Below are positions 23,526 through 25,807 of a DNA stretch of 64,000 bases, piece after piece. How positions within the stretch are numbered: position 1 is the stretch's first letter; every line of letters starts with the position of its first letter. The stretch lies in assembly GCA_903906365.1 (NCBI GenBank), contig CAIVKC010000007.1:62001-126000 (forward strand), in the 5' to 3' direction. The translations under genes and the position numbers were made by a program. Below the pieces are notes generated by a model that was not told the origin of the DNA, ran no database searches, and saw only the letters and a list, made by a program, of their open reading frames with translations. The DNA is from an uncultured Bacteroidota bacterium. GTDB lineage: Bacteria; Bacteroidota; Bacteroidia; Chitinophagales; Chitinophagaceae.

Positions 23526-24233
23526 TTAGTAGGAAATGCTTCTTTCCCGCAGCAATTCCTTGACGCGTTGGATATTTTCGCGCACATCGCCGATGGGAAA
23601 ATCTTCCCGCTCCCCATACCGGATGAACCGGAGAAATTCCCCCCATACAACCGCCTGGCCAAAACTTGTTTTAAACCAGTGCTTCCTGGAAATGGGATAC
23701 TTTTTTGATTCCGAAGGGATGTCATAGGGTTGGCTGACAAGGAGTTTATCGGGGCATATTTTTTTGAGCGTGAGCTTGCTTCGCATGGAAGCATAGGAAT
23801 GGGATAGGAACATGACAGACCTGTCCCCGGAAAAATTATATATCAGGCTGGTTTCCAGAACGTTTTCCAGACTGTTCTTGGAATTGTTCTCCTGAATGAA
23901 TACCACATCCGAAAACAGCTCCCGGGGAATATGGGACAAAATCTGTTCACTTTCGGGGATGGGTTGCAAAATAATGCTTTCGTAACTGGGTATACCGCCG
24001 GTAATGATCACTTTTTTGGTTATGCCCTCTTCCAGCAATCCGCAGATCTTACTGGCCAGTTGCTGCTGAATGATATTGGATCCAAAAACAAACAGGACAT
24101 CCGCTTTTTGTTTTTTATCCTCGGAAAAACAAAGGGAAGTCAGTGCCTCCACCAAATCAGGAAACATCCCGGGAGGACGCGGTGTTTTCTCGATTTCCCT
24201 TGCTTCAATTTGTTGACCGGATTTTTTAATCAT
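23526..24233 (-). CDS. DUF218 / YdcF-ElyC-SanA family protein
   Basis: A 235-residue protein with the DUF218 fold: the opening strand DVLFVFGSN, the IITGGIPSYES loop, and the conserved ENNSKNSLENV segment that corresponds to the family's E-x-x-S-x-N-T-x-E-N motif. DUF218 proteins such as SanA and ElyC are linked to envelope and cell-wall processes, but no activity is established. I chose the ATG at 24233; a TTG at 24254 would add seven residues and overlap the stop codon of the upstream flavoprotein gene (ATTGATC), which would couple the two. No hydrophobic N-terminus is visible, so it may be cytoplasmic. With that gene it forms a minus-strand pair between infC and rpmI. Confidence 0.75.
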   Translation of the reverse strand: MIKKSGQQIEAREIEKTPRPPGMFPDLVEALTSLCFSEDKKQKADVLFVFGSNIIQQQLASKICGLLEEGITKKVIITGGIPSYESIILQPIPESEQILSHIPRELFSDVVFIQENNSKNSLENVLETSLIYNFSGDRSVMFLSHSYASMRSKLTLKKICPDKLLVSQPYDIPSESKKYPISRKHWFKTSFGQAVVWGEFLRFIRYGEREDFPIGDVRENIQRVKELLRERSISY

Positions 24234-24250
24234 TCCAACGCAAGTTAGGA

Positions 24251-25807
24251 TCAATTTAACGATTCCGCAATGACATCTGCCAGCAGACAGGAAAGGGCAT
24301 GTATCCTTTTGGCGTTTTCGACATGCCAGTATTTGATCTTATTATTAAAAATGCCTCCCAGCAAAGGTCCCATGACATACAGGTTCTTTCCGGCTTCAAA
24401 TTTTTCAGTGACTTCAAACCCCCTCCTGGTCCGGTTAACGGTACACAGTCCCCTATTGACCAGGTTGGAGATCAAGGGGGAGGAGGATTCGTCGAGATCC
24501 TCAAAACCTCCGCAGTTTACCACGATGGGGAAGGCTGCAGGGTAGGTCTGAACGGGCTGGTCTGCCCTGCTATGGTATTGCAGGAAATACCCTTTTTCCT
24601 GTCCGGTGGGGGTTTGTATTTTCCCAAAGGACCCCTTGATGAGTTTCTATGTGCCCGCATCCATTAGTTGCTGGGCAGCATCGCGGTATTCGGCACCGGC
24701 CCGTCTGATAAGTTTGGTGAACCGGTTTCCATATATGCTATAGAATTCCTTTTCCTGTTCATGATCGAGTTTTTTGAGTAATTCCACCACCAGGTCGCTC
24801 AGCTGGTAATACATATCTCCAATATGCACCCCTTTTCCATATGCGATGTCCAGGTCTAATTCAATGGTTTGGTATAACCGGTGGGCATCAAAACCGGCCT
24901 CTTTGAGTGCTAGCAGGTGATCAAAGCTATAATTGGGTACGCTGTCCTGGGTTATCCGGTGGGGAAACATACCGCTATAGGAAAGCACCACGACCTGATG
25001 CAGCCGGTTTTTCAGGGAGGGATGCTGGTTGATGAGGTAGACCAGTTCCAGTGAACTGGCATTGGAACCCAGTATCAGCATATTTCGGTTTTGTTCATCT
25101 CCGATTCCGTCCAGCAGTTCTTCAATGCGGTTCAGATTCTCCTGCAAGGAAGGATAATAAGTGTCATTTACATAGAGTAGGTCCTTTGAAGAAGAGGGCC
25201 CCTCCGGAAGCACGGGTTTGATGGTGCCACTGCCGATACAAAGTACAAGGCGCTTTGCGCTCAGGGCAATCAAACCCGGTTGTTCCTGCCTTACAGTAAT
25301 TTTATATAAGTCATTATCTGTTAATTCTATATCAACGGCTTCCCCCTGTATCAGGTCGATGGTGGCAATGCCTTTCCGATCAGCTTCCCCGATGGCAGCC
25401 GCCAGCTTTTCCTGGAGATATTTTCCATACAGGAACCTGGGAATATAGATTTCATCCCATTTGCCGGATTCAAAATGGGCCTGGTTGTTGGCATACCAGG
25501 ATTTGGCCGTTTCACCGCCTTTTAGCATGAGTTCCGCCATCCAGTTCTCCCTGTTTTGTTTCAACCAGCCATAGAAGCCTTCTTTCTCATTGGGATGCAC
25601 AAATTCCCCCAGGGTGGTGATGGTCAGGGAATTGACAGAAGATCTCTGTCCATAGGGAATTCCCCGCCAGGGCTCCCCGAATTTTTCGACAACCAGTATC
25701 TGCAGGCGCTCTTTTGGTTGGCCCGAATGAGCCAGCTTATCGATCAACTGCAACAGGGTTTGAGTACAGGAAATACCACTTCCGAGCAGGGCAATGTCAA
25801 AATTCAT
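24251..25807 (-). pseudogene. FAD/NAD(P)-binding protein gene interrupted by an in-frame TAG
   Basis: A 518-codon frame for an HpyO-like FAD/NAD(P)-binding protein (NAD_binding_9 type) broken by a single TAG at 24647-24649. The first 386 codons start with FDIALLGSGISCTQT, a Rossmann-type nucleotide motif, and include CIGSGTIKPVLP and ILGSNASSLELVYLI, a second nucleotide-binding loop. After the TAG the same frame continues for 131 codons without another stop: KLIKGSFGKI, then VVNCGGFEDLD, NLYVMGPLLGG and KYWHVENAKRIH, which is the conserved C-terminal part of this family. So the whole protein is encoded and only one codon is wrong. Either a recent nonsense mutation, a sequence error, or read-through. 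The 386-residue product alone would lack the second FAD-contact region. Confidence 0.85.

Follow-up and report, generated by a model that had tools for sequence, protein, structure and literature searches.

In the window analysed here (the whole 64,000-nucleotide stretch of DNA from an uncultured member of the Chitinophagaceae), a flavoprotein gene is cut by one in-frame TAG, which we read, with a rough probability of 0.78, as a nonsense allele of recent origin in an accessory gene located upstream of a DUF218 gene, i.e. most likely an ordinary loss-of-function mutation. A single recent nonsense mutation would have hit codon 387; ribosomes would most likely halt at the TAG and RF1 would release a 386-residue protein which, lacking the C-terminal portion of its fold, would probably be inactive or unstable. 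We infer in this that the TAG base is real in the living strain, that the truncated product is inactive and that its loss is tolerated, the last because the gene is accessory in the genus and an intact, 56%-identical paralogue exists. The host, probably a soil-living bacterium, is represented by a draft assembly of 4.66 Mb in 69 contigs, with an estimated completeness of 99.94% and contamination of 0.02%.

Features of the interrupted flavoprotein gene and its downstream neighbour in the window
Feature	Position	Strand	Remarks
Flavoprotein start codon ATG	25805-25807	-	From the translation
N-terminal part with premature TAG	24647..25807	-	386 codons; carries NAD_binding_9 (PF13454)
Premature in-frame TAG	24647..24649	-	Homologue column Leu 11, Met 1, Val 1 (n=13)
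Continuation of the protein, its conserved C-terminal part	24254..24646	-	131 sense codons, frame unchanged past the TAG
90-aa mechanical frame from a GTG within the C-terminal part	24251..24523	-	From the open reading frame list; conceivable reinitiation frame
Normal gene end TGA	24251..24253	-	Overlaps the opening TTG of the next frame in the list
Downstream partner frame with DUF218 domain (PF02698)	23526..24254	-	Listed frame opens at TTG; putative start

Structure of the interrupted gene

Translation of the frame (24251-25807) gave 386 residues, one TAG, 131 further residues and a terminal TGA, just as the original prediction had described it, and the motifs that it had placed in the second part (NCGGF, NLYVMGPLLGG and WHVE) do lie there. 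At the local base composition the chance of 131 open codons is about 0.001, and since this part is homologous to the family's C-terminus, no doubt remains that it belongs to the same gene. Judged from sequence, then, the 386-codon and 131-codon parts are one gene. A single frame aligns end to end with the homologues, which makes a frameshift unnecessary and agrees with the earlier view that no insertion or deletion has to be invoked.

Homologues across the stop

A homologue search of 58 genomes (the own genome included) gave matches at E <= 0.001 in eight: the own genome matched at two places, five further matches within the genus were strong and two were weak. A second scan, of named genomes, returned 13 loci, several of them already found and others including Mucilaginibacter, Pedobacter and Mycobacterium. 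Within the genus, 7 of 33 genomes pass E <= 0.001 (a count that includes the own genome and one weak match, 1.1e-4); of the 18 with a completeness of 90% or more and a contamination of 5% or less, 5 do so. By this distribution the flavoprotein gene is accessory in the genus.

The window gene was aligned with 13 homologues (14 sequences; excluded were L068, a locus truncated by a contig end, and two weak matches, L010 and L011). All 13 are uninterrupted across the TAG site, with a sense codon where the window gene has its stop, the pattern of a nonsense pseudogene. The expectation that a Leu codon had stood there holds for 11 of the 13, but the closest homologue, the paralogue in the own genome, has Met. 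This paralogue, on contig C4, is intact, shares 56% identity with the window gene and groups with it in the tree with a support of 86. None of the aligned homologues ends at the site with its C-terminal part encoded separately, the arrangement that the original prediction had named as evidence against itself, and a split architecture as the norm of the family is thereby ruled out.

One of the uninterrupted homologues is actinobacterial (L061, Mycobacterium intermedium, NZ_MVHT01000053.1; 37% identity) and adjoins a gene for an AMP-binding enzyme. Its presence in an actinobacterium could be a hint of horizontal transfer.

Age of the stop

Branch lengths were estimated on a fixed topology separately for the parts of the alignment before and after the stop. 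The branch of the window gene was 0.448 long upstream of the stop and 0.417 downstream, and that of the intact paralogue 0.410 before the same position and 0.474 after. Relative to the total length of the tree, the branch of the window gene made up 4.3% before and 4.8% after the stop, and that of the paralogue 4.0% and 5.5%; since the intact paralogue displays the same effect more strongly, the slightly larger share of the window gene after the stop is read as noise. Of the columns in which all other sequences agree, 36 lie before the stop and 16 after it; the window gene departs from one of the former and from none of the latter.

Neither the branch lengths nor the invariant columns thus revealed decay of the C-terminal part, and nothing in the alignment points clearly to selection having been relaxed downstream of the TAG. 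It follows that the stop is young relative to the branch, or is an error, or is read through, the same three possibilities that had been listed beforehand and to which the homologues and the intact downstream part still point. Under each of the three, one would equally expect the downstream part to be free of decay.

Possible sequencing error and other interrupted genes

The main rival to a real nonsense allele is an error of sequencing or assembly, in which case the living strain would have a sense codon and an intact gene. The genome is, after all, a draft in many contigs, and a single codon is the only defect of a gene that is otherwise undecayed. Against this stand the high completeness and low contamination given above, and the rarity of stops inside matched domains, which gives the assembly the appearance of not being generally noisy: in the own genome a stop was present in 1 of 26 TonB-barrel matches and in none of the 50 matches to the ABC domain, which is short. 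Substitution errors are rare in a deep short-read consensus, which would count against an error if this genome was sequenced in that way. Taken together, we regard an error as unlikely.

The one interrupted TonB match is a TonB-dependent-receptor-type gene (OMP_b-brl_3, PF14905) on contig C5, plus strand, with a single TAG (G000:C5:2348-2350, L071) in an 819-codon frame that has no other stop. Seven relatives have Pro (5), Ile (1) and Leu (1) in this column, a rough comparison given a one-residue gap beside the site. Across the 33 genomes of the genus, per-genome counts give 389 TonB-type matches. Among the matches listed from outside the own genome, at least three have one TAA (G009 contributes two, G024 one); a lone TAG occurs in none of the listed matches. 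Stops of more than one type therefore seem to occur genus-wide in these sequences, as expected of ordinary nonsense alleles.

A scan of 894 kb of the about 4.66 Mb for pairs of coding-like stretches in the same frame yielded 25 candidates, two of which were taken by eye as one gene cut by a stop: the C5 gene and a Mutator-family transposase (PF00872) with an internal TAA (G000:C43:22143-22145; L073:2143-2145). Other pairs have the appearance of adjacent genes or shadow frames. The transposase was rejected as a clean single-stop case, its frame being also incomplete at the start (it matches only positions 84-377 of the 379 in the model, the first 83 missing). The sensitivity of the scan is limited, as the site in the window itself fell below its cut-off; a different, earlier version covering 494 kb had listed it.

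Both non-mobile interrupted genes seen in the own genome, the window gene and the C5 gene, hence carry TAG. This could be the main observation in favour of something special about TAG, although two cases carry little weight and the C5 gene was selected since the search had flagged its stop.

TAG as a stop codon and possible readthrough

That TAG is normally a stop in this DNA, as the original prediction held, agrees with the terminal TAGs, RF1 and the tRNAs found. The window frames read by eye as thrS, infC and rplT all end in it, and so do 115 of 591 gene-like segments in the 894-kb sample (TAA 279, TGA 197). RF1 is present in the own genome (491.7 bits, cut-off 423.25), and together with the terminal TAGs this rules out a genome-wide reassignment of the codon. 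A search for PylS (TIGR02367) found no match in the 69-contig draft, and pyrrolysine insertion was rejected accordingly; the same profile gave a match in 13 of 14 control genomes, one of them over the cut-off.

The 37 tRNA genes found, all typed by ARAGORN, form an incomplete set (scoring covered 150 of 181 first-look candidates). None of them has a CUA, UUA or UCA anticodon, a negative that holds for the assembled and scored DNA. tRNA-Ala(TGC), tRNA-Ile(GAT) and tRNA-Val(TAC) are also absent from the 37. The first two usually sit in rRNA operons, and they may be missing because these operons are unassembled in the draft. The stop stands in the context ACA TAG AAA, and we know of no leaky-stop context that it matches. 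In all, nothing was found in support of a recoding of TAG.

Regulated or leaky readthrough, in which some ribosomes decode the TAG and provide a low dose of full-length enzyme, would account for the undecayed downstream part and for a second gene in the genome interrupted by TAG only; besides, PMC7918605 argues for frequent, mostly short-lived readthrough of in-frame stops. Nevertheless, no stop is found at the site in any of the 13 homologues, no CUA tRNA is among those found, PylS gave no match, RF1 is present and the codon context is not one that we recognise as leaky, and we consider readthrough improbable. Its most specific form, in which a near-cognate tRNA reads the codon at a low but useful rate, so that the TAG would act as a dose control on a flavoprotein whose intact paralogue is present in the same cell, with the C5 gene as a second case, is in our judgement very improbable.

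Least probable, to the point that we give it hardly any credence, is a two-part protein in which the 386-residue product works together with a reinitiated C-terminal fragment: a 90-aa frame does open at a GTG past the TAG (and the C-terminal part holds further start codons), but that fragment would be missing the 41 residues directly after the stop, no homologue of the 13 is split, and no sign was found that this frame is used.

Relation to known in-frame stops

The preferred reading, a recent nonsense allele, can be set against a class of stops already described. According to PMC7918605, in-frame stops inside bacterial genes are widespread and most persist only over polymorphism-like times, dN/dS around them stays below 1 and readthrough is suggested for many; an orthologous stop in a relative was required there in order to limit artefacts. 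The window gene resembles the cases described there in that a single TAG interrupts a gene showing no other decay, and differs in that its stop occurs in one genome and in no aligned homologue. The orthologous-stop argument, as put forward there, is for this reason not usable for the window gene, which fits the class as a single observation.

Conserved sequence past a stop does not on its own amount to recoding, given that a recent nonsense allele produces the same picture. Should readthrough be true after all, the interrupted gene and its intact paralogue would make a convenient pair in which to measure it in Bacteroidota.

Protein family, fold and gene neighbourhood

The N-terminal part scores as a member of the Pfam family NAD_binding_9 (PF13454; 59.4 bits, cut-off 21.8), from which the window copy differs in being interrupted, while the C-terminal part alone gave no Pfam or NCBIfam match at E <= 0.1. 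A search of the literature under the accession PF13454 found no paper, and the papers listed by a wider one deal with flavoprotein monooxygenases in general. Among solved structures, the search by sequence returned 15 matches with E-values from 0.11 to 0.35, which were taken as chance; one of these chance-level matches is a flavoprotein, the dihydrolipoyl dehydrogenase 3l8k (E 0.33).

A structure model resembles FAD-dependent N-hydroxylases, a fold that is also common to other flavoproteins with two dinucleotide-binding domains, and in this model the segment lost after the TAG is part of the shared fold. By fold, the closest known enzymes are the flavin-dependent N-hydroxylating monooxygenases FzmM, SidA, PvdA and DfoA. 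The full product is best explained as a flavoprotein of about 518 residues that would bind FAD and NAD(P) and is N-hydroxylase-like.

A NAD_binding_9 flavoprotein gene followed by a DUF218 gene was found in three genomes (the window, 23526-25807; L052, which is the same place as L056; and L053). At two further loci (L059 and L063) the flavoprotein gene instead adjoins genes for a DegT/DnrJ aminotransferase and a Branch glycosyltransferase, neighbours that hint at sugar or surface-polymer chemistry.
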